From positions 6,101 to 48,217 of the forward strand of contig QZLH01000590.1 in NCBI GenBank assembly GCA_003833135.1: a stretch of DNA of 42,117 nucleotides. The letters run 5' to 3'. This document shows positions 1 to 33,797 of the stretch, piece by piece. Under the pieces are notes generated by a model. That model was given only the letters and a program-made list of their open reading frames with translations. It had not been told where the DNA came from and ran no database searches. The position numbers were made by a program, and so were the translations under genes. Position 1 is the first letter of the stretch. Every line of letters starts with the position of its first letter. Source of the stretch: Oehlia diaphana. Its lineage: Eukaryota; Glomeromycota; Glomeromycetes; Glomerales; Glomeraceae.

Positions 1-77
1 TTATTTTCTAAATCTGAACATCAAAAAACCAGTAGTTTGGCACGACATTTTTGGTTAATTAAAATTTCATATTAGGA

Positions 78-292
78 AACATGATGAAGATTATTCAACA
101 CATGATGAAAAAACTTCATGTTACATGGTGTAAAACGATGAAAAAATATGATCAACATGATGAAAAGTCGTCATGTCAACATGATGAAAAGTTATCATAA
201 AACATGATGAAAAGTCATCATGAAAACATGATGAAAAGTTATCATGAAACATGATGAACAATCATCATAAAACATGATGAAAAGTTATCAAC
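78..292. repeat. ATGATGAAAAG minisatellite, about 8 degenerate copies
   Basis: Tandem copies of a unit of about 24-26 bp built around ACATGATGAAAAGT followed by YATCATGA. Each unit carries CATGATGA and its near reverse complement TCATCATG, so single units can fold on themselves. Spacing is irregular and no long open frame crosses the block. It lies just left of the candidate first exons of the kinase gene; no function is visible. Confidence 0.85.
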
Positions 293-474
293 CTTTTGAC
301 CAGTACGGCTTGCCATAGTAATATAATAAACTGGTTTTGTTTGATATCAAAGAACCTGAAGGTAAATATTATATACAAAAACAAAATTTAAATATTAAGA
401 TTTTTATTTATTAAAAAACTTAATTATAAATAATCAAATATAATTAAACCAAAATTGCAATATAACAAAACTAG

Positions 475-525
475 TCTCCAGTAATATTAGTAATATTGAA
501 GAAATTAGCACCGGTGAATCTATAG
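475..525 (+). CDS. Candidate 5' exon of the kinase gene
   Basis: This exon is inferred. It follows an acceptor-like CTAG at 471-474 and ends at a GTATAT donor at 526. Of its three frames only one stays open to the donor, reading roughly VSSNISNIEEISTGESI, and it leaves one base (G525) to be completed downstream. A further candidate exon ends at G361 before a GTAAAT donor and reads LVLFDIKEPE; splicing 361 to 475 also keeps frame. No convincing ATG was found, so the true start is either in 1-360 or left of the window. The exon matters because its exit phase is the one needed to read the micro-exon array into the kinase. It could equally be non-coding. Confidence 0.35.
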   Translation, partial: SPVILVILKKLAPVNL

Positions 526-3500
526 GTATATCAAACAGGCTGAAATATTAAATTTTATTTATAAACAATTCAAATACTATCTAGGCTAACTATATTATAT
601 AAAAATTATATTAAATATTTAGCTCGTAAGTTAATATAATGAATTACTCATTATTTTTATTGTATTCCATATAACTAAATAATTTATATAATGATTAATA
701 ATACTGTAGTTAGTAAGTTATCAGTATTTAAATCTTTAGTCCTTTACTTTATTTATTCTACATAACATGCAAATAACTAAATTCTTTGTTTAAATAACTA
801 TTTAATAATTAATTATATTACAGATGGTAAGTTACAATATATATATTATTCTTATTTGTTTAATATTTTACATAATTCAACTAATTATATTCCTAATTTA
901 AATAACTAGATTGTAAGTAATATATATAATTTAAAGCAAATACTTTTAAGAATATTATCTTTATATTTAACTAATTAATAATTAAATAATACTACAGGGT
1001 GTAAGTTATATGATATCTATATTTATATTATTTATATAATTTAACTAATTTCTTTATTTAAAAAATTATTAAATAATATAGGGAGTAAGTTATTTATTTA
1101 TTATTATTATTACTTGTCATTATAATATTTATATATAATTTCAACTAATTAATTTCTTTATTTAAAAAATTATTTTGTAATTTAATTTAGTTGGTAAGTC
1201 ATAATTTATTTAATTCTATTATTACTTACTGTTATAATATTTACATATAATTTAAACTAACTAATTTCTTTAATTAATAGAGAGTAAGTTATAAGTTATT
1301 TATTTAATTCTATTATTACTTATTGTTATAATATTTATATATAATTTAAACTAACTAATTTCTTTATTTAATAGATCGTAAGTTATAAATTATTTATTTA
1401 GTTTTATTATTACTTATTGTTATAATATTTATATATAATTTCGACTAATTAATTTCTTTATTTAATAAATTATTAAATAATATAGGGAGTAAGTTATTTA
1501 TTTTATTTTATTATTACTTATTGTTATAATATTTACATATAATTTAAACTAATTTCTTTATTTAAAAATTATTTTGTAATTTAATTTAGTTGGTAAGTCA
1601 TAATTTATTTATTTAATTCTATTATTACTTATTGCTATAATATTTACATATAATTTAAACTAATTAATTTCTTTAATTAATAGAATGTAAGTTATAAGTT
1701 ATTTATTTATTTAATTCCATTATTACTTATTATTGTAATATTTACATATAATTTAAACTAACTAATTTCTTTATTAAAAAAATTATTTTGTACTTTTAGT
1801 TGGCAAGTCATAATTTATTTATTTAATTCCATTATTACTTATTGTTATAATATTTATATATAATTAAACTAATTAATTTCTTTATTTAATAGAACGTAAG
1901 TTATAAGCTATTTATTTAATTCTATTATTACTTATTGTTATAATATTTATATATAATTTAAACTAACTAATTTCTTTGTTAAAAAATTATTTTGTAATTT
2001 AATTTAGTTGGTAAGTCATAATTTATTTATTTAATTCTATTATTACTTATTGTTATAATATTTACACATAATTAAACTAACTAATTTCTTTAATTAATAG
2101 AGCGTAAGTTATAAGTTATTTATTTAATTCTATTATTACTTATTGTTATAATATTTACATATAATTATATAACTTAAACTAACTAATTCCTTTAATTAAT
2201 AGAACGTAAGTTATAAGTTATTTACTTAATTCTATTATTACTTATTATTATAATATTTTCATTTAATTTAAACTAGTAGCTAACTCTTTATTTAAAATAT
2301 TATTTTGTGATTAATTTAGTTGGTAAGTCATAATTTATTTTTTAATTCTATTATTACTTATTGTTATAATATTTACATAATTTAAACTAACTAATTTCTT
2401 TATTTAAAAAATTATTTTTAATTTAATTTAGTTGGTAAGTCATAATTTATTTATTTAATTCTATTATTACTTATTGTTATAATATTTACATAATAATTTA
2501 AACTAACTAATTTCTTTAATTAATAGAACGTAAGTTCTAAGTTATTTATTTAATTCTATTATTACTTATTGTTATATAATTTAAACTAACTAATTCTTTA
2601 TTTAAAAAATTATTAAATAATATAGGGAGTAATTTATTTATTTAATTTTATTATTACTTATTGTTATAATATTTACATATAATTTAGACTAACTAATTCC
2701 TTTATTTATTAGATCGTAAGTCATAATTTATTTATTTAATTCTATTATTACTTATTATTATAATATTTACATATAATTTAAACTAACTTATTTCTTTAAT
2801 TAATAGTACGTAAGTTATAAGTTATTTATTTAATTCTTATTGTTATAATATTTGCATATAATTTAAACTAACTAATTTCTTTATTTAAACATTATTAAAT
2901 AATATAGGGTGTAAGTATTTATTTAATTCTATTATTACTTATTGTTATAATATCTACATATAATTTAAACTAACTAATTCTTTATTTAAAAAATTATTTT
3001 TAATTTAATTTAGTTGGTAAGTCATAATTTATTTATTTAATTCTATTATTACTTATTGTTATAATATTTACATATAATTTAAACTAACTAATTTCTTTAA
3101 TTAATAGAGCGTAAGTTATAAGTTATTTATTTAATTCTATTATTACTTATTGTTATAATATTTATATATAATTTAAAATAACTAATTCTTTATTTAAAAA
3201 ATTATTTTTAATTTAATTTAGTTGGTAAGTCATAATTTATTTATTTAATTCTATTATTACTTATTGTTATTATATTTGCATATAATTTAAACTAACTAAT
3301 TTCTTTAATTAATAGAGCGTAAGTTATAAGTTATTTATTTAATTCTATTATTACTTATTGTTATAATATTTATATATAATTTAAAATAACTAATTCTTTA
3401 TTTAAAAAATTATTTTTAATTTAATTTAGTTGGTAAGTCATAATTTATTTATTTAATTCTATTATTACTTATTGTTATTATATTTGCATATAATTTAAAC

Positions 3501-5174
3501 TAACTAATTTCTTTAATTAATAGAGCGTAAGTTATAAGTTATTTATTTAATTCTATTATTACTTATTGTTATAATATTTATATTTAATTTAAACTAACTA
3601 ATTTCTTTATTTAAAAAATTATTTTTAATTTAATTTAGTTGGTAAGTCATAATTTATTTATTTAATTCTATTATTACTTATTGTTATAATATTTATATAT
3701 ATACAGTATATAAACTAACTAATTTCTTTAATTAATAGAACGTAAGTTATAAGTTATTTATTTAATTCTATTATTACTTATTGTTATAATATTTACATAT
3801 AATTTAAACTAACTAAATTAAAAAATTATTTAAATAATATAGTTTGTAAGTTATTTATTTAATTCTATTATTACTTATTATTATAATATTTACATAATAA
3901 TTTAAACTAACTAATTTCTTTATTTAATAGATCGTAAGTTATAAATTATTTATTTAGTTCTATTATTACTTATTGTTATAATATTTGCATATAATTTAAA
4001 CTAACTAATTTCTTTATTTAAAAAATTATTTTGTAATTTAATTTAGTTGGTAAGTCATAATTTATTTATTAATTCTTTTATTACTTATTGTTATAATATT
4101 TACATAATAATAATTTAAACTAACTAATTTCTTTAATTAAAAAATTATTAAATAATATAGTTCGTAAGTTATTTATTTAATTCTATTATTACTTATTGTT
4201 ATTATATTACATATAATTTAAACTAACTAATTTCTTTAATTAATAGAACGTAAGTTCTAAGTTATTTATTTAATTCTATTATACTAATATTTATATATAA
4301 TTTAAACTAACTAATTTCTTTATTTAAAAATTATTAAATAATATAGGGAGTAAGTTATTTATTTAATTCTATTATTACTTATTGCTATAATATTTACATA
4401 TAATTTAAACTGACTAATTTCTTTAATTAATAGAACGTTAGTTATAAGTTATTTATCTAATTCTATTATTACTTATGGTTATAATATTTACATATAATTT
4501 AAACTAACTAATTTCTTTATTTAATAGAACGTAAGTGATAAGTTATTTATTTAATTTTATATTACTTATTGTTATAATATTTACATTTAATTTAAACTAA
4601 CTAAATTTTTTATTTAATAGAACGTAAGTTATAAGTTGTTTATTTAATTCTGTTATTACTTATTGTTATATTATTTATATATAATTTAAACTAACTAATT
4701 CATTTATTTTATAGATTGTAAGTTATAAGTTATTTATTTAATTCTATTATTACTTATTGTTATAATATTTACATATAATTTAAACTACTTTATTTAAAAA
4801 TTATTTTGTAATTTAATTTAGTTGGTAAGTTATAAGTTATTTATTTCATTCTATTATCACTTATTGTTATAATATTTACATATAATTTAAACTAACTAAT
4901 TTTTTATTTAAAAAATTATTTACGATCTAGCTTGTAAGTATCTCTATTGCTATATATTTTGTATAATATTTATTTATTAACTGAATTCTTTTATTTAAAT
5001 ATATCTGTTACTTTAGTTGGTAAGTTGTAAATCATAGGTTATTATATGTATTTATATAAAAATCAAGACTTAGATTCCATTAAATTTCTATTTAAATTTT
5101 AGAGTAAGTAATAATTTATTTTGTATAAATTATAATACAATCTATAATATAAATTTTAATTATTTAATTTATAG
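526..5174 (+). repeat. Tandem intron array with 45 three-nt and one 1-nt putative micro-exons
   Basis: About 46 tandem units of roughly 80-115 bp. A typical unit has a GTAAGT donor, an AT-rich body with CTATTATTACTTATTG, a branch-like TTTAAACTAACTAATTTC, and an AG acceptor. Acceptor and next donor are always 3 nt apart. Triplets with their first base: CTC623, TTA710, ATG824, ATT910, GGT998, GGA1082, TTG1191, AGA1281, ATC1375, GGA1486, TTG1590, AAT1684, TTG1800, AAC1893, TTG2008, AGC2101, AAC2203, TTG2320, TTG2432, AAC2527, GGA2626, ATC2713, TAC2807, GGT2908, TTG3014, AGC3108, TTG3222, AGC3316, TTG3430, AGC3524, TTG3639, AAC3739, TTT3843, ATC3931, TTG4047, TTC4161, AAC4247, GGA4347, AAC4434, AAC4528, AAC4621, ATT4715, TTG4822, CTT4931, TTG5017; then a single A at 5103. 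Forty-two of the 45 donors are GTAAGT; the exceptions are GCAAGT (1803), GTAATT (2629) and GTTAGT (4437). The last intron is 5104-5174, ending TTTATAG at the kinase exon. The repeat and motifs are seen; splicing is inferred. Confidence 0.9.
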
Positions 5175-6474
5175 TTATGGGAAAAGTGGTAATGCAATTA
5201 TAGATGATTTTATTCTTAAAAAAAAAATAATATGGATTCCTTATAACAAATTTAAAAATGTTGAATATCTTAATGAAGGAGGATTTGGTACTATATACAA
5301 AGCTATTTGGTTAAAGAATGATGGAGATGGAGATAAAGAAGTAATTCTTAAATGTCACAAGAATTTAAATGAAAATTTAAATGAATTTTTGAAAGAAGTA
5401 TGATAGTATATTATTTTCTATTTTTAATTTAAAGAAAAATTTTTTTATATTAATAATTATTATTATTATTTATAGTGGGAATATCATATAAGTGTTATAG
5501 GTTCAAGCAATATTTTAAACGTTTATGGATTCACAGAAGATCCAGATACTTCAAAATATATGGTAGTACTTGATTATGCAAATAAAGGTAATTTAAGAGA
5601 AAATTTAATAAGAATAGTCAACAATAATTGGAATCAAAGATTGTATATGTTGTACGAAATTATTTCTGGACTTAGTAAGATCCATAAAGAAAATCTTATT
5701 CATTGTGATTTTCATGATGGCAATATTTTAAATCATAATAATAAGAATAAGGATAAAATTTATATTAGTGATTTAGGATTATGTCGACCTGTAAAATCGT
5801 TTTTGGAAAAGTATGATATTTACGGTGTTATATCATTTATGGCTCCTGAAGTTTTAAGAGGCAAACCTTATACTCCAGCTAGTGATATATATAGTTTCTC
5901 TATGATTATGTGGGAGTTTACATCTGGAATACCACCATTTAATAATAGAGCACATGATTTTCAACTTAGTTTAAGTATTTGTAAAGGTGAACGCCCTGAA
6001 ATTATTGAGAATACTCCACAATGTTATGTAGATTTAATGAAAAAATGTTGGAATGAAGATCCATTAAAAAGGCCATCTTCTAAAGAAGTATTAAAAAATA
6101 TTGAAAAATGGATTTTCCGTCCTGATGATGATAAAATTAATGAAGAATTAAAAAGCAACATTATGGAATTTATAAATGCACCAATTGGACATGACAATCT
6201 TGCTACTAAATCTCATCCTAAAGCATGTTTTACAAGTCGCTTACATGATTTTACTAGTAAAAAATTGAATGAAATTCTTGAAAGTGAAGATTCACAAGCT
6301 AGTGTAAAAGCAAATGAAATGCTAGATAGTGAATATTTGAATGATTATATAAAGGGTCTGGGGTCATTAGGTATGTACTATGATATATAAAAGAATTAAT
6401 CTTGCAAATTATATATGTGAAATTAATTATACTTAATATTTAATTATTTAGATATTAAAGCAGATGAAAATTAA
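5175..6474 (+). CDS. Protein kinase (tyrosine-kinase-like, Rhizophagus-expanded family), 5' end unresolved
   Basis: Kinase domain spread over exons 5175-5397, 5476-6370 and 6452-6474. Exon 1 opens in phase 2 with YGKSGNAIIDDFI, then WIPYNKF, the glycine loop EGGFGTIYKA and the ATP-binding Lys in VILKCH. After a 78-nt intron (GTATGA to TATAG) come the catalytic loop HCDFHDGN (HRD with Arg replaced by Cys; catalytic Asp and Asn kept), DLG in place of DFG, MAPE, and a C-lobe RPSSKEV. The tail resumes with SRLHDFTSKKLNEIL. The reading frame runs on to a stop at 6388, but GTATGT at 6371 and TTTAG at 6447-6451 give a better final exon, ending SLDIKADEN, which resembles tails of many Rhizophagus kinases. 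The first Met inside the domain (5560) cannot be the start because the glycine loop and Lys lie upstream of it. The frame enters from the micro-exon array. Probably a cytoplasmic Ser/Thr or dual-specificity signalling kinase; substrate unknown. Confidence 0.85.
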
Positions 6475-7425
6475 CTGATCATTGTTTGTTTTAAAAGAAT
6501 TTATAGTCTTTTTAAGTGATATTTGATATTACATATTCAAAGAAATTGCTTTTTATTTTATTCTTTTTAAATTTATTTAAACACTAAGGCTAGAGTAGTA
6601 AAATATTTTACAAGTTTCTTAGTTTGTAATTTATTTAATTCTTTTTTTTTTAGCTTATGTATTTATACTTAGAATTATTTAAACATTAAGATCAGAGTAG
6701 TAAATATTTTACAAGATTCTTAGTTTGTAATTTGAATAAATCTTTTTTTATAACTTATCCAATTATGATATAAATTATCAAAATAATAATATAAAACCAT
6801 TTCCAATGATAATGTAAAAAAAATTTTTATACTTATTCTAATAGCTGATTGTACTTAATTTATATTTATTTTAAATATTTGATAAGAAACTACATCAAGG
6901 ATATCTGCTGGATTATACAATGCATTTTTTTTTCTTGATAAACCAAAGATTTCTAACTTTATTTTATTTTTGATGTACAAGTATAAATGTATTTAAAATC
7001 TGCAGAGAAGAGTGGATTCACAGAGTTCAAGGTCATCACACGTGGATTGATATCGGGTGATTTGTAAAAATATTTTAATTAAATTATATTAATTTAATCA
7101 TATTTATTTTTACTCACTTAGGGTCTTAGGTTCAATTCTTAGGTAAGTAAATAAAAATTTCATAGGATCGCTGGAAGAATCTCGTCCTTAAAAGATCAAT
7201 GGGAATCGCTTTTTGGAACGTGTTGGGTATCGGACATTGTTCAAAATGGATATTTTCCAGATATATTATTTTTAGCATAATTTTCGCATAAAATCAAAGA
7301 ATGCACGTTATTTACTGTATCATTATCGACATGATGTGATCATCAAACTTGCGGAGATCCGTTAATAGATAAATATTGGACATATGTCCCAATAATGGTT
7401 TTGTACCACCATCTTATTTTTTCAT
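6475..7425. other. AT-rich intergenic region
   Basis: No gene seen. Two related AT-rich segments occur around 6585-6630 and 6685-6730, each with AGAGTAGTAAA, ATTTTACAAG and TTAGTTTGTAATTT, so a short local duplication is present just after the kinase gene. The rest holds scattered stops in all frames. Confidence 0.5.
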
Positions 7426-13216: not shown

Positions 13217-14963
13217 TTATTCGATAAATAAAATACTTTTAACATGTTTCTTATATCTTTTGTATATTATAAATGCAGCTATTATAATAATAATAAACCC
13301 AAGTATACTACTAACGATGGCTATTATTATTACCAACTTAATATGCTTTGTATCTTGTGGAGAAGATTCCGTAGCAGGAGGTTCTGTAGCAGGAGGTTCT
13401 GAAGGTGATTGGCTTAAATTTTCTACCTGATCAAAATCGGCATAATCACCAATTTTATAAATCAAGATTTCATCACTAAGTACATTACCTTCCTTTGTAT
13501 AAACGAACCCTAAAAAAATATCAATCATAGTGAATTATAAGTTCAAAGTAAAAATATATATGTATCGGGTGAAAGTGGTGCAGACAGTAACATATTCGAA
13601 AAGCAGAGCAATTCGTTCAAAAAGAAAATTGAAAGGAAAGAAGGTGAAAGGCCATTACAGGGATAACACAAATTTGACAGTAAACAGTCATATTTTTCGT
13701 TCTGGACAAAAATAAAAAAAATAGTTATATTTACCGAAAGCAATAAGCATATGATCGCCAACTAAAGTTGCTGTATGACCTTTATAAGGAGCTCTAATGT
13801 ATATATCTTTATTACTATGATACCATTGGTATGTATTCACATCTAATACTTCATAATAAGTCTCTGCTGGATGTTTCGTAGTATTATCAGCGCCGCCAAA
13901 TATAATTATTCTTTTATCGTTTGCTTTTAAATATTCCAAAAAATTGAAACATTTAAATTAGCATATTAAAAATAATAATATAATTAATTACATTACTTAC
14001 TTAATATAGCTGTGTGAAATACTCTACTTTTTGGTGGATTTTTCGTTGGCTTTTTAAGTAAGAATAATATTTATTAAATATTCATTTTCTAAATTTGAAC
14101 ATTATGTAATTACATACCTGTTTTCTCCAATTATTCCTTACTGTATCATAAATATCTATCTATAAAAGAGTTAAATCAACTAATTAATTATAATTGTTAT
14201 TTTTTTTTTTAAAAAAATAATTAAGAAATTACTGGCTTACATTGCCCATATCTAATAATCCTGATGTGATATAAGGGTAAAAATTTCTACCAAAGCCTCC
14301 AATGTAAATAATAACACCAGAATCAGGTATGTAAGTTGCAGTATACCCATCTCTTGGAGTTAACGTAATATCATAGTCAATACTAAACCAAATTTTGTTA
14401 ACTGTATCGAAGGTGTCCATAGTGTTAAAATATTGAATAGGAACAAGCTCTTTTACACCACCATAAAGATATACTTTGCCATTATTATCTGTGACAGCGT
14501 TCATTGATGTTCTCCTTAAAGGTTCTTCACCAGAATTAATTGTAACGTATTGCCATACTTGTTTTGAGGTGTTAAATGATTGTAATACTTCACTAGCATA
14601 CTTAGATTGACTTCCCATATCTCCACCAAATAAGAAAAATGTATCTTTTGATATACCACCAACTGAAGTAGTCGCTCTATTATGCTCTGGTACTACACTA
14701 GCACTTAAATGATTTAAATCTTCAAATGGGCATCCTTCACTTTGATTAAACGATTTTGAAACATCAAGAGTAAAAAAATCGTTAGTATATATTGATAATT
14801 CTGTAAACCCTCCAAGAAAATATATTTTTTTTTCAACTAACGTTGCCGTATGAAAAGCTCTTTTCATAGGTACATATTGTTGACAATTTATAACATTAAT
14901 TTGAAAACTAATTAAATAAAAAATTATTTCTAACATACGAACTAATTTATTAAAAAGTTTCAT
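13217..14963 (-). CDS. Kelch-repeat membrane-anchored secreted protein (paralog A)
   Basis: Five exons, read on the minus strand: 14963-14241, 14159-14118, 14049-14001, 13923-13735, 13509-13217. Phases join cleanly to give 431 residues. Residues 1-27 form a signal peptide (hydrophobic LEIIFYLISF, likely cut after INVINC). Kelch blades follow with double-Gly strand ends: YFLGG near 48-52, FLFGG, VYLYGG, IIYIGG, IIIFGG, and a last HTATLVGDHMLIAFG, so about six blades and a likely beta-propeller. After a Pro/Ser/Thr linker with a duplicated PPATE comes one transmembrane helix (IIIAIVSSILGFIIIIIAAF) and a short basic tail. This suggests a type I surface or vesicle protein with a luminal or extracellular propeller; the ligand is unknown. 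A TATA-like element lies about 50 bp upstream. The fourth intron (13510-13734) is 225 nt, much longer than in the paralog at 25462-27054. Confidence 0.9.
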
Positions 14964-15010
14964 TTCGAAAAAAAAACAGAGAAATAAAAAGAACGGATTG
15001 AAGTCTAGAC

Positions 15011-15020
15011 ATATATAAAA
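15011..15020 (-). promoter_or_regulatory. TATA-like element of Kelch gene A
   Basis: On the minus strand TTTTATATAT lies about 50 bp upstream of the ATG. The same arrangement, an A-rich leader then AAGAACGGA and a TATATAAAAAT core on the plus strand, is found before the paralog near 27111. The conservation in both copies supports a core promoter. Confidence 0.5.
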
Positions 15021-15039
15021 ATATTCAATTTTAATTTAT

Positions 15040-17870: not shown

Positions 17871-18008
17871 GCAGGAATTTACGCTTTGAGATTCTATAGA
17901 AACTGCCAAATATTATTCAACTTCATTATGAAATAATAATTCTTCTTTTTTTGTACAATCCACTTCTCTAAATAAAAATTATCCAACTAGTAAGTCCACT
18001 GAAATGAT

Positions 18009-18270
18009 CTAAATGTTCTCCGCCCTTAGATTTTACTTGTTTTTCAAAATTATTAAATGCCATCTCAATTGATCCAGTACCCCCAAGGTTGAACTTCTAA
18101 ATGCTCTCGCCCTTCAATTTTACTCGTTTTTCAGAATTATTAACTGCCATCTCAATTGATCCAGTGTCCCCAGATTGAACTTCTAAATGTTCTCCGCCTT
18201 TCGATTTTACTTGTTTTTCAGAATTATTAAATGCCATCTCAATTGATCTAGTACCTCCAGGTTGAACTTT
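18009..18270 (-). repeat. Three tandem copies of an 86-bp coding repeat in the hAT remnant
   Basis: The segment that on the plus strand contains CTAAATGYTCTC, TTTTACTYGTTTTTCA, ATTATTAA and CATCTCAATTGATC is repeated about every 86-87 bp, starting near 18009, 18096 and 18182. In protein terms it gives repeated SIEMA-NNSEK-VK-KG. Because 86 is not a multiple of 3, the third copy falls out of frame, which ends the transposase frame. Confidence 0.8.
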
Positions 18271-18648
18271 TGAATGTTTATGTTTACATTCCCAGTGATA
18301 GTTAAGGGTAGTTGTAGCACATCCTGCAGAATAATTTTTACCACAAAAATTACATCTTGATTGGGAATGAACGCCATTATCATCATATAATTTTTCAAAA
18401 TATTGCCAAACGACACTTGGTGCACGAACTGGTATGAATTTTCTTTTAATTTTTGAGGAATCAAAAGATATTTCTCCATCAGTTTTTCGTTCCTCTATGT
18501 CAATTTCTTCTCTTTTATAACCAAATTTTTCTTCCTGATAATATTCATTTACATGAGATTTAAACCAAAAATCTAATATGTCATATAATTCACTTGCTAT
18601 TGATCTTTGATTTGGAATGGCATTCATACATCTATAATTATCGCTCAT
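18097..18648 (-). pseudogene. BED-finger N-terminal part of a hAT transposase
   Basis: 183-codon frame. A BED-type zinc finger is clear: SVVWQYFEKL, CNFCGKNYSAGCATTTLNYH and WECKHKH give the Cys-x2-Cys ... His-x(4-5)-His pattern after an aromatic lead-in (roughly residues 79-124). Before it lies an acidic region, after it the tandem SIEMA repeats, and then a stop caused by repeat drift. BED fingers in fungal hAT transposases bind element ends. The rest of the enzyme is missing, so this is non-functional as a transposase, though a small DNA-binding protein could still be made. Confidence 0.75.
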
Positions 18649-20420: not shown

Positions 20421-21865
20421 TAGGTCTTCTCTTTACTCTTAGGCCCCTGGCTTTTCTTTACGTCTTCCTTTAGGTATGTGGGTTGTTGTGTAGGTTTGTG
20501 TGTGGGTTTGTGCGTGGGTGGTGTATGTTTGTGTATTTCCTTGCTCTTTCCCTCTCGTTCTCCCTTTCCCTCTCGCTCTCCCTTTCCCTCTCGTTCTCCC
20601 TTTCCCTCTCGTTCTCCCTTTCCCACTCGTTCTCCCCTTTCCCTCTCGTTCTCCCTTTCCCTCTCGTTCTCCCCTTTCCCTCTCGTTCTCCCTTTCCCAC
20701 TCGTTCTTCCCTCTCCCACTCGTTCTCCCCTTTCCCACTCGTTCTCCCCTTTCCCACTCGTTCTCCCCTTTCCCACTCGTTCTCCCCTTTNNNNNNNNNN
20801 NNNNNNNNNNNNNNNNNNNNNNNNNNNNNNNNNNNNNNNNNNNNNNNNNNNNNNNNNNNNNNNNNNNNNNNNNNNNNNNNNNNNNNNNNNNNNNNNNNNN
20901 NNNNNNNNNNNNNNNNNNNNNNNNNNNNNNNNNNNNNNNNNNNNNNNNNNNNNNNNNNNNNNNNNNNNNNNNNNNNNNNNNNNNNNNNNNNNNNNNNNNN
21001 NNNNNNNNNNNNNNNNNNNNNNNNNNNNNNNNNNNNNNNNNNNNNNNNNNNNNNNNNNNNNNNNNNNNNNNNNNNNNNNNNNNNNNNNNNNNNNNNNNNN
21101 NNNNNNNNNNNNNNNNNNNNNNNNNNNNNNNNNNNNNNNNNNNNNNNNNNNNNNNNNNNNNNNNNNNNNNNNNNNNNNNNNNNNNNNNNNNNNNNNNNNN
21201 NNNNNNNNNNNNNNNNNNNNNNNNNNNNNNNNNNNNNNNNNNNNNNNNNNNNNNNNNNNNNNNNNNNNNNNNNNNNNNNNNNNNNNNNNNNNNNNNNNNN
21301 NNNNNNNNNNNNNNNNNNNNNNNNNNNNNNNNNNNNNNNNNNNNNNNNNNNNNNNNNNNNNNNNNNNNNNNNNNNNNNNNNNNNNNNNNNNNNNNNNNNN
21401 NNNNNNNNNNNNNNNNNNNNNNNNNNNNNNNNNNNNNNNNNNNNNNNNNNNNNNNNNNNNNNNNNNNNNNNNNNNNNNNNNNNNNNNNNNNNNNNNNNNN
21501 NNNNNNNNNNNNNNNNNNNNNNNNNNNNNNNNNNNNNNNNNNNNNNNNNNNNNNNNNNNNNNNNNNNNNNNNNNNNNNNNNNNNNNNNNNNNNNNNNNNN
21601 NNNNNNNNNNNNNNNNNNNNNNNNNNNNNNNNNNNNNNNNNNNNNNNNNNNNNNCGTTCTCCCCTTTCCCTCTCGTTTTCCCCTTTCCCTCTCGCTCGTT
21701 CTCCCTTTCCCTCTCGTTTTCCCTTTCGTTTTCCCTTTCCCACTCGTTCTCCCCTCTCCCACTCGTTCTCCCTTTCCCTCTCGTTCTCCCCTTTCCCCCC
21801 TGATCAATGTTGCTGCACCTCAACGTGGTGATCAGGTGACAACAAGTTTTTTTAAAAGACTTGGC
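20420..21865 (-). repeat. Composite repeat, copy 2, expanded into a pyrimidine/purine minisatellite
   Basis: On the minus strand this has the same order as the copy at 15850-16050: TTCTATTTGTTGC, an A-run with AACTTGTTG, ACGTTGAGGTGCAGCAACAT, TTGATCAG, a purine tract, a CA-rich stretch and AGAGAAGACCTA. The purine tract, about 60 bp in copy 1, is here at least 390 sequenced bases of an 18-19 bp unit (plus strand CTCGTTCTCCCTTTCCC) plus an 864-base gap. All six frames are open through it because the unit lacks stop codons. These frames are artefacts, not genes. Confidence 0.85.
20791..21654. other. Assembly gap (864 N)
   Basis: Run of N inside the minisatellite. Sequence on both sides is the same 18-19 bp repeat, so the gap very probably holds more of it; the true length is unknown. 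Confidence 0.98.
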
Positions 21866-25461: not shown

Positions 25462-27054
25462 TTATTCGATGAATAAAATGTCATTTTTCTCATTTGGATA
25501 TTTTCTAAAAACTATAAATAAAGCTATCATAAAAGTAACAAATCCTAATGTACCAACAGAAATAGCTATTATTTGTATCGTTGTGATTTTTGTATTTGAT
25601 GAATGAGAATGGTTCTCTATAATAGGTCGTTCGAAACCTTCTACCAGATCAAAATCTGCATTTTCACCAATTTTATAAATCAAGATTTTATCACTACGAG
25701 CATTACCGTGTTTTGTATAAGCGAAACCTAGAAAAAAAAAATCAAACATAATAAATTATAAATTAGTATATATTTTTCATATAATAACAAAAAAGGAAAA
25801 AATAATATACTCAACCAAAAGAAATAAACATATAATCGTCAACTAAAGTTGCTGTATGGCCTTTATAAGGAGCTCCAAGATAAGTATCCTTATTACTATG
25901 GTACCATTCGTATGTATTTACATTTAATACTTCATAATAAGAATCTGCTGGATGTTTTGTAGTATAATCAGCGCCGCCAAATAAAATTATTCTTCTATCC
26001 TTTGCTTTTAAATATTCCAAAAAATAATTAGCATAATAAAATAAATAAATAAATAGAGATATTATCAATAATAAATTCAATACTTACTTAATACAGCTGA
26101 GTGAAATACTCTACTACTCGGTGGATCACTTGTTAACTTTTTTAAGAATGAATAATATATTTAACAAATATATTTTTGGATTTTCTGAAAATTATATAAT
26201 TACATACCTGTTGTCTCCAATTATTATTTATTGTATCATAAATATCTAACTATAAAAAGGGGATAAATCAACTAATTATTTATCATTGTCATTATTTTTT
26301 AAAAGTTTATAAAAAATTTATACAATTGACATACTTTGCCTATATCTATTAACCCCGCTGTGGTGAAAGCGTCACTACTTTTGCCAAAACCTCCTATATA
26401 AATAATAGAACTGGTTTCAGGTATGAAAGTAGCAGTATAACCATCTCTTGGAGTTGGAGCTGATGCAAAGTTAATACTAAGCCAAACTTTGTTAATTGTA
26501 TCAAAAGTATTCATTACGTTATAATATTGAATAGGACTAAGCTCCTTTGCCCCACCAAAAAGGTATGCTTTGCCATTACTATCTGTAGCAGCATTACTTG
26601 ACGTCCTTCTCATAGGTTCTTTACCAACATTAGTTGTCACAGTTTGCCATGTTTTTTCTGAAGTACTAAATGATTGCACTACTTCATTAGCATAATCAGT
26701 ATAATTTCCCATATGTCCATCAAACAAAAATATTGTATCCTTTGATTCCCCACCAACTGAAGTTGTTGCTCTATTATGTTCTGGTACACCAGTACTTAAA
26801 TAATTTAAATCTTCATATGGAAGTCCTTCACTTTGATTAAACGATTTTGAAACATCAAGAGTAAAAAAATCGTTTGTATATTTTGCAAAATCTGTATAAC
26901 CACCAAGAAAATAAATTTTATTTCCAACCAGCGTCGCCGTATGAAAAGATCTTTTCATAGGTACATATTGTTGACAATTTATAACATTAATGTGATAACT
27001 AATCAGACATAAAATAATTCCTAATATTCGAATTAATTTATTAAAAAGTCTCAT
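25462..27054 (-). CDS. Kelch-repeat membrane-anchored secreted protein (paralog B)
   Basis: Five exons on the minus strand: 27054-26335, 26249-26208, 26136-26088, 26004-25816, 25727-25462, giving 421 residues. Exons 2, 3 and 4 have exactly the same lengths (42, 49, 189 nt) and phases as in paralog A. A signal peptide ends at INVINC (about residue 27). Kelch strands include YFLGG, AYLFGG, IIYIGG and IILFGGADYTTKHPA. A single transmembrane helix (IIAISVGTLGFVTFMIALFIVF) sits near the C-terminus with a short tail ending ILFIE, as in paralog A. The Pro-rich PPATE linker of paralog A is absent. The donor of intron 4 must be GTTGAG (25815-25810), a weak site; reading through it meets TGA at once. 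Intron 4 is 88 nt here. Likely a surface or secretory-pathway propeller protein with unknown ligand, from a duplication about 12 kb apart. Confidence 0.9.
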
Positions 27055-27110
27055 TTCGAAAAAAAAAAAAAAATAAAGAAAAAAAAAAGAACGGACTTAA
27101 TGTCCGATGT

Positions 27111-27483: not shown

Positions 27484-29189
27484 AAAGGAATTAATACTTG
27501 ATTTCACGTTATTTTACTAAAAACAAAAACGGAAACCATTGAGAGTCCGTCGCTTAATACGCTTAATAGTAACAATAATATATATATATATATAAATGGT
27601 TACAAAAATGTGACAAAGTGTTACAAAATGTGTTGCTAAAAATAAAGCGTTACAAAAAATGTGATACAAAACATAAAAGGAAATAAGCAGGGGCTAAATT
27701 AGAGTGACGTAGATGGAAGGAAGGAAAATACATGGGTAAAACCGGTACTACAAATTTATCCAATAAATAGTCCTTCGCTACGCTCCGGACAATCAATAAA
27801 AATGCGCTGGACATTTTCCTGACAGCCTAACGCTGGCAGTTTGATCACGTGTTCGTGCATAACTCTGCATAACATTGGCCAAACTTGTCAGGCAAATGTC
27901 TTTCAGGAAATCATCCGCCGGGAAATCGTGCCGTAACCAAAAGATAAATAATCATATTGTGTATGAAAACGTATTTTAAATTAAATCTGGAAGATTCGTT
28001 AAATGGACGTCTGTACACAAGCCAATCTAGAAAGGAAAATTCTTGATGGCAATTTTTTTATTTCGAAAAGTGAGAACTACAAAAAATCCTAAAAAACTTT
28101 TTCGAAAAGTGTTAGAACTCCAAAAAATCTTGAAACCTTTTTCAGGAAAATACACTATTATCAAATAAATGCAATATAAGACAATAATTGGTTGCTTATT
28201 ATTTGAAGGCTGAATTTAAAATCGGGAATATACTGTATATCCACCTCTTTTATTTTTAAATGAATAACCAAAAATGCTTTTGCCAATGTACAGTATTACC
28301 AAATACCAAACATCATTGATAATATTAGGTAGGACACGAAAAATATTATATTCCACAGATCCAATATCTTATGTAATAATAAAGTTATTATTTATAAATG
28401 GTATATACAATGCATAAAAAAAAGAAATAATTATTGTCAGAATAAATAAGCTGTATTTGATGTCACAGTAGGCCCTTACCGGATAATCTATTTATCCGTG
28501 AACACAGACCCTCACATTAAAACCATGACCACTACGCAAGGACACAACTATATCAATTATATGATTATGACAATGTCTATCAGGAAAGTCGTCATTTATA
28601 GATAATCTAGTTTTTTTTTTAATTATTCTCCTACACATTAATGTGTATTTATATTTCTGAATCACTTTTTTAAAAATAAATTAAATAAAATAAGCAAAGT
28701 CATAAAAAATCAAACAATGCAATAAATAATAATACGCAGTTTAATAAAATTATAGGAGATTATACAATAATTTTGCGTTCTAGAAAAATATATTATGAAA
28801 TTCGATTAATACTGCTACGATACGGATTCACTTCTTGCAAACACTTAAAATTATTAGAGTATGACGCCAAATTTACCAATCTTTTCTGTTTTTAAACTTC
28901 ATTTACTTCATTTGAATTCGTGTGGTGTAACAAATATTACGATTAACTTTTTTGGTCGCTCAGTTCTTTAACAATGCCACAATAACAATCCGTAGTAAAA
29001 AAAAAAAATCAAATTTTAAATTTTTTTATTGATAATTCAAAAATATGCAATTGTTTCTAACGCTAGATCCTAAATGTATTTATTAGACAAAGGCTTAGTG
29101 TGTCACAATAAGATTGATACTTAATAAAACCTTATTGGTGAACTTTGCACTACTTTGATGTATTTAAAATCAAGAATCTAACAACAACA

Positions 29190-29190
<1 letters not shown>
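27484..29190. other. Intergenic region with microsatellite and repeat debris
   Basis: A TA microsatellite lies at about 27578-27594, followed by several GTTACAAAAAATGTG-like direct repeats up to 27670. The 27760-27960 part is richer in GC, with paired CTGACAGCC / TGTCAGGCA motifs, and looks like a transposon fragment. No open frame is supported. Confidence 0.45.

Positions 29191-29220
<30 letters not shown>
29191..29220. repeat. Poly-A tract of 30 bases upstream of the CYTH gene
   Basis: Thirty uninterrupted A residues 40 bp before the ATG at 29261, preceded by ACAACAACAC. It lies in the likely promoter or 5' UTR. Confidence 0.95.
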
Positions 29221-29222
<2 letters not shown>

Positions 29223-29260
29223 ATTCGACAATTAAAAAATCTCTTCAAAAATTATTAATA

Positions 29261-30070
29261 ATGAATAATCTATTTACTAAGAGAGGAATATTATATAAAA
29301 TTCCTCTCGCCCAATATATAAAAAATGCAATGAAACAACAAAAACTTTATAATACACAACAGAATCATTTTGAAGTAGAACGAAAATTCAAATTTGATGG
29401 TTCAAAAGTTATTTTGTTGGAAAAAAATAACGGAAAAAAACTTTTTGATAATGTCACTTTTATCTCTGAAAAATCATTTACTGACGTTTATTACGATAAT
29501 CAATCGGAAAATTATCCATTAACCACAAATGATATTTGGCTTCGTAATCGGGATAACAAATGGGAATGCAAAACACCTGTTAATTTAACCGCTTCAATGG
29601 ATTCTTATCATGAACTTGATGATACCAATATCATTAAAGAATTTCTTGATAAAAAATTGGATGTTAATAAAAGACGGTCAGAAAATATTCATTATAATAA
29701 AGAAGAATTTAAAGATTTTTTATTTAAAAAATACAATCTCACGCCAATTTGTACGATAATTACTCAACGTCGTAACTATCTTCTTAATAATAAATTTACT
29801 ATGGTTTTGGATACCGCAGACTTTGGACATTCGGTCGGTGAAATTGAATTGATAGTTGAATCTCAGGACAAGGTACAAGACGCAGAAAAAAGAATTGCAC
29901 TTTTTATGAAAGAACATGATTGGTTTTTTGAAACTGATGGTATAGTGATGGGTAAATTATTAGCATATATCTCTAGATTTAACAAGAAACAATGGGAATG
30001 CATGAATAATTCCAACATGCTTAAGAAAAAATTATTCCCGGAAACCTTGGATAATGTTGTAACTAAGTAA
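29261..30070 (+). CDS. CYTH-domain triphosphatase, thiamine-triphosphatase-like
   Basis: Intronless frame of 269 residues. The core follows the triphosphate tunnel fold: EVERK at 38-42 (ExExK signature), DVYYD at 75-79, IWLRNR at 92-97, WECK at 101-104, TQRRNY at 168-173, VLDTADFGHSVGEIE at 182-196, and GKLLAYISRF near 231-240. The order and wording, especially LDTADFG-x2-VGE-x-E and KL-x2-Y, match animal thiamine triphosphatase (THTPA), which hydrolyses thiamine triphosphate to the diphosphate with Mg2+; other CYTH proteins use tripolyphosphate or make cAMP. About 37 extra residues precede the core; they hold several basic residues and could be an organelle-targeting or leader segment. The gene is convergent with the viperin gene, stops 183 bp apart. 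The exact substrate is inferred. Confidence 0.85.
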   Translation: MNNLFTKRGILYKIPLAQYIKNAMKQQKLYNTQQNHFEVERKFKFDGSKVILLEKNNGKKLFDNVTFISEKSFTDVYYDNQSENYPLTTNDIWLRNRDNKWECKTPVNLTASMDSYHELDDTNIIKEFLDKKLDVNKRRSENIHYNKEEFKDFLFKKYNLTPICTIITQRRNYLLNNKFTMVLDTADFGHSVGEIELIVESQDKVQDAEKRIALFMKEHDWFFETDGIVMGKLLAYISRFNKKQWECMNNSNMLKKKLFPETLDNVVTK

Positions 30071-30253: not shown

Positions 30254-31279
30254 TCACCATTCAAGCTCTTTAGCTTGGTTGTTACCACAAACATTCGAAG
30301 GTTGTTTTGACCAATCATAAATTCCAGATCTTCCGATAAATGCTTCTTGATCCCATCCAGCTTGCATCAATGCTTTTTCAACAGGTACGTCTAATATTGA
30401 TTCACTAGGAGTCTTTTCGTTATTGGTACAATTTAAAAATCGTAAATATTCATCAAGAATCAAGTAAGAATTCTTCATAAGATTATTTGGTTCGGGTACT
30501 AAACATTTTTGTTTCGAATGTCGCTGAATAAATTCCTCAAATTCTTGATCGGTTACTACAAATTCGCGAGCATCTCTCAATGTACCCTCACCACCTCCAT
30601 TTTCATTTTCTAAAATTAACACTTGAAAGCATTTCCATCGAAATGGTGCAATTTGTAAAATATTTTCATTCATATCTTCTGATTTATTGTAAGCATTTAC
30701 TACCGTATTTAACTTAAATTTAATCCCAAATTCACGACACCAACGAGAAATGTCGCTTAACTTTTCAACGTGCTTTCCAGTTCCCCTTCCAATTTTTTTA
30801 TTAACTGATTCATCAAAAGAGTCACAAGAAATTGCGAGAATGTCTATATAATCTTTATTTCGTTGTAAAAATTCGTATTTAATTTTACTCCCATTACTAA
30901 CAATAGAGGCTGATTCTACTTTTAATACTTGCTTACAAAAACGTAATAATTCTTCAAGATATTTCGGATATAAAAATGGTTCTCCACCGGCAAAATTGAT
31001 CTTCTTCATACCTTCATCTGCAAGTTTTCTTAAACCAGATTTTGCATCTTCAATTGGAGCCAAATATGATGTTTTTGCGGTATGAAAACAAAAACCACAT
31101 TCATAATTACATTTGCGTGTGAAATGATAATTCACGGATAATGGTACTTTTTTATTGTTTTGACTCAAAATATTTTCTGTTTTCTTTGAGGAACATTGAA
31201 TTTTGTTTTTTTTTTTATTAAAAACATTATAAACAATGTATGTTATGATAAGCGCAAAAAATGTAAAAAAAGGTAACAT
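30254..31279 (-). CDS. Viperin-like radical SAM enzyme (RSAD2 family)
   Basis: Intronless, 341 residues (human viperin is 361). Residues 3-20 form a hydrophobic helix followed by NKKKNK, like the membrane-binding N-terminus of animal viperins on ER and lipid droplets. The radical SAM motif CNYECGFC (Cys57, Cys61, Cys64) binds the 4Fe-4S cluster after SVNYHFTRK; INFAGGEPFL at 94-103 is the SAM-binding GGEP loop. SNGS, LAISCDSFDE and KLNTVV also match the family. The C-terminus ends ELEW, fitting the [LIM]-[DES]-[WF] tail by which clients bind the cytosolic iron-sulfur targeting complex. Known members convert CTP (some UTP or GTP) to the 3'-deoxy-3',4'-didehydro nucleotide, an antiviral chain terminator; the substrate here is not proven. 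Convergent with the CYTH gene. Homopolymer-rich DNA lies upstream; no defined promoter was recognised. Confidence 0.93.
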   Translation of the reverse strand: MLPFFTFFALIITYIVYNVFNKKKNKIQCSSKKTENILSQNNKKVPLSVNYHFTRKCNYECGFCFHTAKTSYLAPIEDAKSGLRKLADEGMKKINFAGGEPFLYPKYLEELLRFCKQVLKVESASIVSNGSKIKYEFLQRNKDYIDILAISCDSFDESVNKKIGRGTGKHVEKLSDISRWCREFGIKFKLNTVVNAYNKSEDMNENILQIAPFRWKCFQVLILENENGGGEGTLRDAREFVVTDQEFEEFIQRHSKQKCLVPEPNNLMKNSYLILDEYLRFLNCTNNEKTPSESILDVPVEKALMQAGWDQEAFIGRSGIYDWSKQPSNVCGNNQAKELEW

Positions 31280-33797
31280 TATTGAGAAGATGAGATGTAG
31301 AATATTTAGGGTAAAAAAAAATTTTTTTTTTTTTTTGGTTTTTTTTTTTACCTTTTTGTTTTTTTCTTCATTTTTCGCAATTTTTTTATAAATAAAGGAA
31401 GGTCACGGGTACGACGAGTGACAAAATGAACAAGGAGTTAAGACTCCGTTGTAAAATACAAATTTGGAAACAAAAGCACTTGCGAGCGATATTACGGAGA
31501 CCTTTATGATAATTTAAGTTAATTTAAAATTACAAATTCAAAAACAGATAAATTAAAAAAGAACCCATGATTACAATTTACTAATTTGGAAACAAAAAAT
31601 TCCCTTATTAATAAATTAAAAAATTATTATCAACTGATTTTCAAATCTATAAAAAAGTTCGATTGTACTCACTTCTATACAGAGAACATTTGGGCTAAAA
31701 GGCTAAATTAATAATTTATGATTTAACCACCTTTGATTGTTTAATTACTTCATTTGAATAATTATTTCGTATAAATTTTTTCATTGTTTTGATTCAAAAA
31801 CTCATAAAAGTTCATTAAGCAATCTTTATTCTTTTGGTAATACCCAATAAAATTATGTTGTGTTAGGGTTATACTATTAACTATTGTGCTATTAAGAAAG
31901 GATATATTGTATTATTATAATTGTTTTGCTTTGATCATTTCTATTAAAAGTAATAATAAATCAACCTTACAATAATTAATCTAACCAATATTTAACAAGC
32001 AATTAATAAATAATTTTGACTGGTTCATGACAATTTTCCTGCATAATTTCATCATATTAAGACAAAGACAAAAATAATAAAATTCCCAAGGCAATTCTAA
32101 ATTTCCATAAATATGATCTTCTGTAGTACCGCGTTTTTAAACTGTAACACATGATCATGTGTTTTTAGCCATATTGATGAGATTATGCAATTATATGATG
32201 CAAACCCATTTGAAATTATATTACGAGAGAATTTGATCTATTTAGAAGAATTTATCTATCTAATAATACTCACACATATGATAAATTCTGGAAATCGAAG
32301 ATATTCCATTTCGATGAAACAAATGTCTAATGAAAATAATCGCACGTGCGTTATTTTTTTCATAATGCAAAAAATAAAGCTTTTCCTAATATATTATGAA
32401 TATATATAACGAATAAAATTCTAACAAATTTTTCTATTTTTAGTTTAATTATTATTATTTAGAACCTGTATGATTAAAAGTTCCAAATTTTTAATCCTTT
32501 TGTGAGCTCTTTTGTATACGAATGATTATTCATCAACCCGCGATTTATTCCATTGAATTTACTAAGCGGAGATAATTTTCAAATCTAGGTCTCTTTGTGG
32601 GATCGTCTGCCATTAGCTCCGTATCTATTTAGATACTTAAAAGTCACGAATACCTTAAGAATGAATAAAACGACGTAAATAGAACAATAATTTTTGATAT
32701 AGAGTGATTGATCGATGAGACCCGTTTCATTACACTTTTCCTTCTGGAGTCCAAAATGATCATGTTTAATGAGAAATTCTCTCGACACATGATCCTTAAT
32801 CCTCACTAGTGGGCAGTGGCTAAAAGTGAGATATTAATTGTATTAATATTTTGCTTGGATACAGAAGATAGGCACTAATTTAATTTACGAAATTGATCAT
32901 GAAATATTTTTGATCGATCTTCGACAATTTCTTGATGGTGCATTGTCTGTTAAATTATGATAAGAAAGGTAAGATTTAGAATATTTAAAATTAATTATAG
33001 CACAGCGTAGATGAAAATGTAACGATAGCTATCAAAAGTTAACAAAAGTTTCGATTGAATTTTTGTGTCAGGCGTCAATATAGAGTTGCGATCCGCCAAT
33101 ACATTCAGCCATTTTACTCAATAAAAAGAATTTTTTTTTTTTTTTTTTTTGAGATATCTTATGAATTTCTATCAATACATAATATAATAAAAAAAAATTG
33201 TCTTCAAAAATAAAAGTAGAGAAAAAATTAAAACGGATTGAAATTCATTTATTTTCTCTTTTTTTTTGTAATTTTTTAAACTACTAGATTGTGCATTGGG
33301 ATGCAGTCTTATAATATATAAAAAAGATTTAATCTTTATATTAATAAAATCTGTGTATAATTGCCAAAAAGTGAATTCATCCAGATCGTATCTCTAACGT
33401 CAATAAGTTAATTTTCTCTCTTTATTCTGAGGTAAATAAGGACTAATCCTATATTCATCTTATAAATATTTTGAAGAAAAGTATTAAATATTAGCATCAG
33501 GTGATTAATTTATTTATATAATTTATCTGAAAATACGGCAGCGATGACTGATTAACATGATTGATTACTTTCATCATAAACAGATTTCAAATTTACGTTA
33601 GACAAATAATAACATTGGTCAACGATTCAAAAATACAATCTCGCAAGATTTCGATCGCGCAAGATTTCTGATCATTAAATTTTCAACGATCAATAATTTA
33701 ATTAACTCGTCAATTTTATTTAATAAATAGTAATAAACACATCAAGTGGTAAATATAAAATATAAATTCTATAGAAATTGTCAATTATTATTTTTTT
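31280..33797. other. AT-rich intergenic region between viperin and lipase genes
   Basis: The first 100 bp are long T runs on plus (A on the viperin sense strand). Another T run lies at about 33129-33150. Short frames such as 32185-32409 and 32585-32806 have no recognisable motif. TCTCGCAAGATTTCGATCGC and CGCAAGATTTCTGATC form a short local direct repeat near 33640-33675. Confidence 0.5.

Follow-up and report, generated by a model that had tools for sequence, protein, structure and literature searches.

An array of 45 predicted three-nucleotide micro-exons, with a predicted single-nucleotide exon at its end, upstream of a kinase domain in Oehlia diaphana

The DNA analyzed here (the window) is a stretch of 42,117 nucleotides (nt) of Oehlia diaphana, contig QZLH01000590.1 of assembly GCA_003833135.1, positions 6,101 to 48,217 of the forward strand (C587:6101-48217; Cn denotes contigs and Ln fetched loci of this genome, of which 108.8 Mb were searched). 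Upstream of a kinase domain, positions 526-5174 hold 47 intron-like stretches around 45 three-nt segments and a final one-nt segment at 5103. These 46 segments are very probably micro-exons that are spliced in order, nearly all included and translated, and such a codon-wise reading of the array explains the data best. In this way some 46 residues preceding the kinase domain would be assembled, one codon's worth per splice. The array also appears, with good confidence, to belong to a class of coding tandem repeats that occurs throughout the genome. Each repeat unit would consist of one intron and three coding nt, and the arrays would encode segments of up to 65 or more residues; the spliceosome would ratchet along them, the frame being locked by phase, and in the kinases a one-nt exon would close the array. 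The case for function rests more on this family than on the copy in the window. The ingredients of such a coding repeat of an intron plus three nt, spliceosomal introns and micro-exons, are known. No description of arrays of three-nt exons, or of dozens of them in series, was found in the open-access literature; subscription papers and preprints lay outside that search.

In the unit parse of the window array (525 to 5175) all 46 acceptors read YAG and all 46 units have a GT or GC donor, which is GTAAGT in 43 of the 46 (42 of 45 in the triplet units alone); very short exons are flanked here by GT-AG introns, as is the case for spliceosomal micro-exons. The 45 introns between the micro-exons measure 81-114 nt (mean 96.6, standard deviation 10.5), and a CTRAY motif is located 15-60 nt upstream of the acceptor in 40 of the 45. 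As no interval in the array exceeds 114 nt, no unit seems to be missing. A preliminary description, made from the sequence alone, had reported about 46 tandem units of AG, three nt and donor with GTAAGT in 42 of 45 triplet units, intron-like bodies of 81-114 nt and a branch motif before the acceptor in most units, all of which the parse reproduces. Its view that every unit is a triplet holds for 45 of them and fails for the last, AG-A-GTAAGT, where a one-nt exon is needed for the frame.

When the distance of GTAAGT from the preceding AG was left free between 0 and 12 nt, 42 of 43 sites were found at 3 and the remaining one at 1, with none at 0, 2 or 4-12 within the array; the zero-nt acceptor/donor junction that marks a ratchet point never occurs. 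Six GTAAGT are found at a distance of 1, five of which belong to AGA or AGC triplets that are counted at 3 as well, and one to the true one-nt unit. In 500 trials of Markov-1 controls, spacing 3 occurred 0.04 times on average and never more than once. A parser free to choose any exon length between 0 and 12 nt settled on 3 nt in 189 of the 205 units of nine loci, and in 45 of 51 in the window; the other units in the nine loci are mostly terminal one-nt units and calls inside flanking exons. The predicted features of the gene are as follows.

335-361, forward strand: relic of the 27-nt exon 2 of the family, from comparison by eye with the upstream regions of C602, C182 and C722
475-525, forward strand: coding exon 3, 51 nt, phase 1 at both ends, reads SSNISNIEEISTGESI followed by G, donor GTATAT
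526-622, forward strand: first intron, preceding the array (sequence, unit parse)
623-5019, forward strand: array of 45 putative three-nt micro-exons (unit parse, spacing test), listed in the next five lines by first base
forward strand: 623 CTC, 710 TTA, 824 ATG, 910 ATT, 998 GGT, 1082 GGA, 1191 TTG, 1281 AGA, 1375 ATC
forward strand: 1486 GGA, 1590 TTG, 1684 AAT, 1800 TTG, 1893 AAC, 2008 TTG, 2101 AGC, 2203 AAC, 2320 TTG
forward strand: 2432 TTG, 2527 AAC, 2626 GGA, 2713 ATC, 2807 TAC, 2908 GGT, 3014 TTG, 3108 AGC, 3222 TTG
forward strand: 3316 AGC, 3430 TTG, 3524 AGC, 3639 TTG, 3739 AAC, 3843 TTT, 3931 ATC, 4047 TTG, 4161 TTC
forward strand: 4247 AAC, 4347 GGA, 4434 AAC, 4528 AAC, 4621 AAC, 4715 ATT, 4822 TTG, 4931 CTT, 5017 TTG
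5103-5103, forward strand: putative single-nucleotide exon A between AG (5101-5102) and GTAAGT (5104), leading from phase 1 to phase 2
5104-5174, forward strand: last array intron, acceptor TATAG
5175-5397, forward strand: first kinase exon, phase 2 start T TAT GGG AAA AGT..., donor GTATGA; the junction LKE|WEY matches annotated homologs
5476-6370, forward strand: main kinase exon, PF07714 (E=2.5e-33), donor GTATGT at 6371
6452-6474, forward strand: last coding exon, ...DIKADEN followed by TAA; C-terminus identical in P0005

Directly 5' of this gene, where paralogs carry further exons, positions 60-300 of the window hold a tandem repeat of the CATGATGAAAAGT type. A CATGATGAAAAG repeat lies just upstream of the gene and is followed by N, and the approximately 2.6 kb preceding the window consist of N. 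No Rfam match was obtained at E <= 1 in window positions 1-7000, and the idea that the introns contain structured RNA, as snoRNA host genes do, was dropped on this ground.

The reading frame depends on the one-nt exon. The exon with the ATG ends in phase 1 in C54, C602 and C531 (by eye also in C182 and C1374), further upstream exons are in phase 1 at both ends, and the intact kinase exon opens in phase 2; as the triplets are phase-neutral, only the one-nt exon reconciles the two sides. The triplets lie in phase 1, so that the first two bases of each complete one codon and its third base opens the following one. If all 46 micro-exons are included, the frame of the window gene is open from exon 3 through the kinase to ...DIKADEN and the stop codon, about 46 of the 441 predicted residues being supplied by the array. 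Without the single A it ends inside the kinase exon after ...VMGKVVMQL, so that the frame of the window gene requires a single-nucleotide exon. In C37 (L053) the nucleotide before the kinase exon is G instead of A, with length and frame kept. A phase 0 reading, with the triplets as codons, was dropped: phase 1 is dictated by the exons on either side, and in phase 0 neighbouring triplets should not be coupled.

If the micro-exons are joined in order in phase 1, the last base of each triplet forms a codon with the first two bases of the next, although the two triplets lie about 97 nt apart in the DNA. Stop codons were counted at these junctions and compared with the expectation from shuffling the triplets within their chains. 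The kinase loci used are the best 30 of 151 genome matches, with the window first. In set 1 (nine genes) there were no stops in 222 junctions against 7.7 expected (0 of 5000 shuffles as low), and in phase 2 there were 50 against 39.6. In set 2, the 21 other kinase loci, which had been held out, there were none in 118 against 4.0 expected (P = 0.007), and 19 against 20.9 in phase 2. Set 3 comprised C17, C30, C37, C46, the Sel1 gene and two C38 arrays with their 6- and 9-nt units, leaving aside C13 and the part of C17 that overlap set 2; it gave none in 162 against 7.0 expected (0 of 5000 shuffles as low). In sets 1 and 2 together, triplets ending in T were never followed by AA, AG or GA (0 of 97), in comparison with 52 of 243 for other triplets (P = 4e-9); with the shared array ends trimmed the count for T-ending triplets was 0 of 65 (P = 1e-6).

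The avoidance is clear for adjacent triplets only. Pure-triplet chains, broken wherever an interval exceeded 125 nt or a unit was not a triplet (553 triplets in 58 chains), gave no stops in 495 junctions at lag 1 against 18.9 expected, a count that none of 3000 shuffles reached. At lag 2 there were 13 in 437 against 16.9 (P = 0.14), followed by 14 in 384 against 15.0 at lag 3, 17 in 339 against 13.3 at lag 4, 11 in 302 against 12.0 at lag 5 and 9 in 269 against 10.9 at lag 6. Neighbours read in reverse order gave 20 stops in 495. After repeated triplet pairs were collapsed, there remained no stop among the 265 distinct pairs at lag 1, and 12 among the 254 at lag 2. We know of no process at the DNA level that would protect neighbouring junctions only; the best account of the pattern would be ordered splicing of nearly every unit, followed by translation.

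The same counts bear on two other ways in which the array could be spliced. If the units were ratchet points for the recursive removal of one long intron, the triplets would be absent from the mature mRNA; AG-N3-GTAAGT does resemble the juxtaposed acceptor and donor of such points, as far as these are described in the portion of PMC8605326 used here. This is highly improbable, since the phase-1 upstream exon joined directly to the phase-2 kinase exon is out of frame, the avoidance of stops at lag 1 only would be left without a cause, and the spacing is 3 and not 0. Alternatively, subsets of the micro-exons could be combined by alternative splicing into many protein variants. Any subset stays in frame, as the triplets are frame-neutral, provided that the one-nt exon is used, and schistosome micro-exon genes are described as a protein-variation system in the part of PMC5825161 consulted. 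Junctions that skip one or more units, however, form stops at about the expected rate (13 of 437 against 16.9 at lag 2, P = 0.14, as above), so that skipped forms are apparently not protected by selection; we consider this combinatorial use unlikely, and prefer inclusion of nearly all units in order.

The conservation of motif and spacing was compared with that of the intron bodies in the 420 nt upstream of the kinase glycine loop, a region chosen without regard to the array. Of the 30 loci 20 were usable; the loop pattern was absent in nine, and the flank was too short in one. Mean pairwise identity was 0.974 for AG-TTG-GTAAGT, 0.978 for AG-A-GTAAGT and 0.877 for the aligned part of the kinase exon. 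The two intron bodies reached 0.577 and 0.438 with gaps counted, or 0.763 and 0.742 on the columns present in the window. The distance from AG to GT is 3 in 20 of 20 loci and, at the one-nt exon, 1 in 20 of 20 (one locus with AA for AG), whereas the lengths of the introns range over 69-89 and 68-91 nt. AG-A-GTAAG[TC] is present in 19 of the 20; in the remaining locus, L022, the acceptor AG has become AA. The preliminary description had argued that a constant distance between AG and GT would be unlike a neutral satellite, and this comparison across loci bears the argument out. The array could still be thought of as a satellite or minisatellite within one large intron, with splice-like motifs as functionless inherited copies, and its interior is indeed tandemly repeated, with a recent amplification of a 208-bp two-unit block. 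A neutral satellite should have no constrained positions, while here a core of 0.97-0.98 identity stands against bodies of 0.44-0.58, the motifs being even more conserved than the kinase exon. Judged from these alignments, the pattern is the opposite of that of a freely drifting satellite. Arrays of other genes have different intron bodies (by eye) and keep the same 3-nt spacing, stops are avoided between neighbouring triplets that lie about 97 nt apart, and the one-nt exon is needed for the frame; that the array is functionless satellite DNA is exceedingly improbable. Motif and spacing conservation, recurrence in other genes and the lack of stops at lag 1 together support, at the level of sequence, what the preliminary description had claimed, namely tandem introns and three-nt micro-exons that feed into a kinase exon.

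Chains of at least three units were found in the short flanks of 25 of the 30 kinase loci (24 of the 29 paralogs). Upstream DNA was taken for eight paralogs and for the window, whose own upstream stretch is N; the nine merged loci contain 7 to 65 triplets each. C54 has nine triplets and the closing A, 28 nt altogether, and C531 has 28 triplets. The 65 triplets of C268 include one break of 255 nt, and the array starts at the edge of the fetched region. In C587, C531, C722 and C182 the array opens with CTC-(TTA/TTG)-(ATG/ATA/TTG)-ATT-GGT, in C602 with CCC; the ends are commonly CTT-TTG-A, and the interiors differ among paralogs. The shared ends and differing interiors suggest that the array is older than the paralogs, and it seems to have been changing in its interior within each of them. 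Even C30, whose kinase is only 64% identical, starts with CTC-TTG-AAA-ATT-GGT and keeps the one-nt exon.

A pattern of two adjacent three-nt units had 1353 matches in the genome, against 33 for the reversed-pattern control; with 4 nt, which served as the alternative spacing, there were 3 matches against 11. The three-unit pattern had 798 matches (control 11); preceded by TT, it was found in 8 stretches in 257 Gb of prokaryote genomes and not at all in viral contigs. Arrays with seemingly unrelated intron bodies (by eye) adjoin a Sel1-repeat exon in C66, an assignment made by applying Pfam to the next reading frame of the gene, and lie in C38 genes. One C38 gene has a single open frame from an in-frame ATG, a candidate start, to a stop codon; it takes in 31 micro-exons, of which 30 are triplets and one has 6 nt, together with a 9-nt exon, all in phase 1. 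The array of the Sel1 gene, part of which is N, lies between two phase-1 boundaries. Micro-exons of 6 or 9 nt occur in a few other loci (L030, L072).

Several details of these loci may be added. In L070 (C66:43500-50500) the donor of one unit, at about 4434-4445, reads ATAAGT against GTAAGT in the units next to it, and seems to have been lost recently. L071 and L072 (C38) have a different intron body and a few 6- and 9-nt exons, and a kinase C-terminal reading frame lies just upstream in L072.

The arrays likely grow by tandem duplication of an intron plus three nt: neighbouring units are alike, and the 208-bp two-unit block, present 6.7 times at 90% matches in 2836-4243 and giving rise to a run of EL dipeptides in the predicted protein, fits such an origin. 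An origin by duplication of a unit of intron plus codon had been proposed before; the duplication stands, the codon does not, as the triplets straddle codons in phase 1. An exon of constant size could also result if introner-like elements had inserted repeatedly and had duplicated a 3-bp target each time. As the triplets differ among units and do not represent one duplicated target, as neighbouring units are tandem copies with higher-order 208-bp periods, and as different arrays have different bodies (by eye), this second route is not needed and, judged from the tandem arrays, very improbable. Under tandem duplication and deletion of units, both frame-neutral, arrays would grow and shrink; copy number would drift while selection purges stops and broken splice sites. 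Our guess is that the encoded N-terminal stretch serves as a variable linker ahead of the kinase domain.

The annotated proteins touch the array at its edges. The kinase predicted for C531 is identical to the annotated Rhizophagus diaphanus protein P0010 in 356 of 356 residues, and P0010 starts, by eye, at an ATG within an array intron. Exon 3 is homologous to a stretch in the annotated Rhizophagus irregularis proteins P0020 and P0063, whose models likewise connect upstream exons with the kinase: P0020 joins its exon-3 homolog to a point inside the kinase exon, and P0063, as translated here, reads through the last array intron as far as the donor of the one-nt exon. P0001, P0003 and P0006 are annotated as partial. 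The jgi/ena entries P0032, P0100, P0108, P0109 and P0110 start at or inside the main kinase exon and contain no array sequence. Among the best 120 of 1363 database matches of the kinase exon (5476-6390), all that name an organism are from Rhizophagus species.

A number of observations weigh against inclusion and translation of the array. Existing gene models bypass it, and protein searches found no array-encoded peptide (three candidates with two matches, neither in the array part; none in a second search). Five of the 30 loci (L002, L003, L017, L024, L027) have no chain of three in the short flank, each ending in a one-nt unit under a looser parse. Six of 238 intervals in the nine genes exceed 125 nt and are array breaks. 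C722 and C1374 have no kinase exon junction, their last units running into unlike or acidic-repeat sequence; they are probably damaged members. In phase 0 the triplets are poor in stops too (5 of 553), which we attribute to the narrow triplet repertoire. The junctions are not independent, since units are related by duplication, and the lag controls are equally affected. The count at lag 2 falls a little short of expectation (13 against 16.9, P = 0.14; for set 1 alone, 4 against 7.4, P = 0.09), and units may occasionally be skipped; some units with weak donors may be parsing errors. Finally, in the window exon 2 has the acceptor GG (333-334) in place of the AG of its paralogs, while its donor is intact (GTAAAT at 362), and an exon 1 with an ATG was not seen upstream, where the CATGATGAAAAG repeat is followed by N. 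The family could function as described while the window holds a decaying member that has lost its 5' end. This is possible, if rather doubtful: the frame is open from exon 3 to the stop through 46 micro-exons, skipping exon 2 would leave the frame unchanged, and the N stretch may contain exon 1.

An acceptor and a donor 3 nt apart should not be able to engage at once. In an array of functional micro-exons the short introns would therefore depend on intron definition and be spliced out in sequence; every splice would leave behind 3 nt and expose the following GTAAGT. The process would resemble recursive splicing, with the difference that a codon's worth is deposited at each step. Strong intronic donors may compensate for the absent exon sequence: 205 of 238 triplet donors in the nine genes are exactly GTAAGT, while the larger exons of the window gene have the donors GTATAT, GTAAAT or GTATGA, as expected if the intronic side alone carries recognition.

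Recursive-splicing ratchet points are similar in that an acceptor is followed by the donor for the next step; according to the sections of PMC8605326 used, they are exon-like units of 0 nt, mostly in long introns, and leave nothing behind, whereas here 3 nt would stay per step. The Schistosoma micro-exon genes (MEGs), with exons of 6-36 bp (PMC5825161) or 3-81 bp (PMC10526429) in the passages available, share runs of very short symmetric exons that keep the frame whether included or skipped. In the same excerpts their micro-exons make up about 80% of the coding region, with introns of up to 5 kbp, and the proteins are secreted or exposed. In the window gene the micro-exons are of 3 nt almost throughout, the introns of about 97 nt, the units tandem repeats and the product a kinase with PF07714, a domain that would speak against secretion or exposure; the array accounts for about a tenth of the protein, so that short symmetric exons do not form most of its coding region. 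Aphid bicycle and megacycle genes also have many micro-exons of near-uniform phase, more than 100 in one gene. As far as the extract of PMC9168663 goes, bicycle genes have about 17 exons on average, nearly all in phase 2, and encode putative effectors, and the more than 100 micro-exons of the megacycle gene encode about 2000 residues, too many for exons of one codon each. The micro-exons of plants, of 15 nt or less, resemble the present ones as very short exons overlooked by annotation; arrays are not mentioned in the consulted parts of PMC8831610 and PMC12409088. One-nt exons are described for Arabidopsis APC11 (PMC4674806) and Fusarium CYP621A (PMC12940212). In what these sources state in the portions used, both genes are unreadable without the exon, as is the case here, and the read-supported exon of CYP621A also joins a phase-1 to a phase-2 boundary (PMC12940212). 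Those are lone, RNA-supported exons in otherwise ordinary genes, while the present one closes an array, recurs throughout the family and is predicted from sequence.

The remainder of the window contains further features. A radical SAM protein (30254-31399, reverse strand; PF04055, E=1.5e-19) has a CNYECGFCFHT motif, and we take it to resemble viperin-like enzymes. Two similar kelch-repeat frames with alike N-terminal hydrophobic stretches lie about 12 kb apart at 14229-15035 and 26299-27096 (reverse strand). An 87-bp tandem repeat of 3.1 copies at 18008-18278 overlaps the end of a BED zinc-finger frame. The only N run in the window (20791-21654, 864 N) is located between CTTTCCC/CGTTCTCC repeat stretches. 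The reading frames 29168-30067, 34252-35634 and 39146-39940 encode a CYTH-domain protein, a class 3 lipase and an M16 peptidase.

Minimal exon size, the sharing of acceptor and donor, and recursive splicing are usually studied on single exceptional exons. If confirmed by transcripts, the arrays would offer more than 1000 adjacent pairs of three-nt exons, graded array lengths and natural one-nt exons in one genome, and one could measure the order of splicing, how faithful each step is and what dozens of introns cost. In practical terms there would then be no minimum to the size of an exon, not even where many follow one another. A minisatellite would be a means of encoding protein by way of introns, and tandem duplication would have a route by which a protein is lengthened residue by residue through its introns. 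For the annotated kinase-group proteins of Rhizophagus, the arrays would explain their ragged or partial N-termini.

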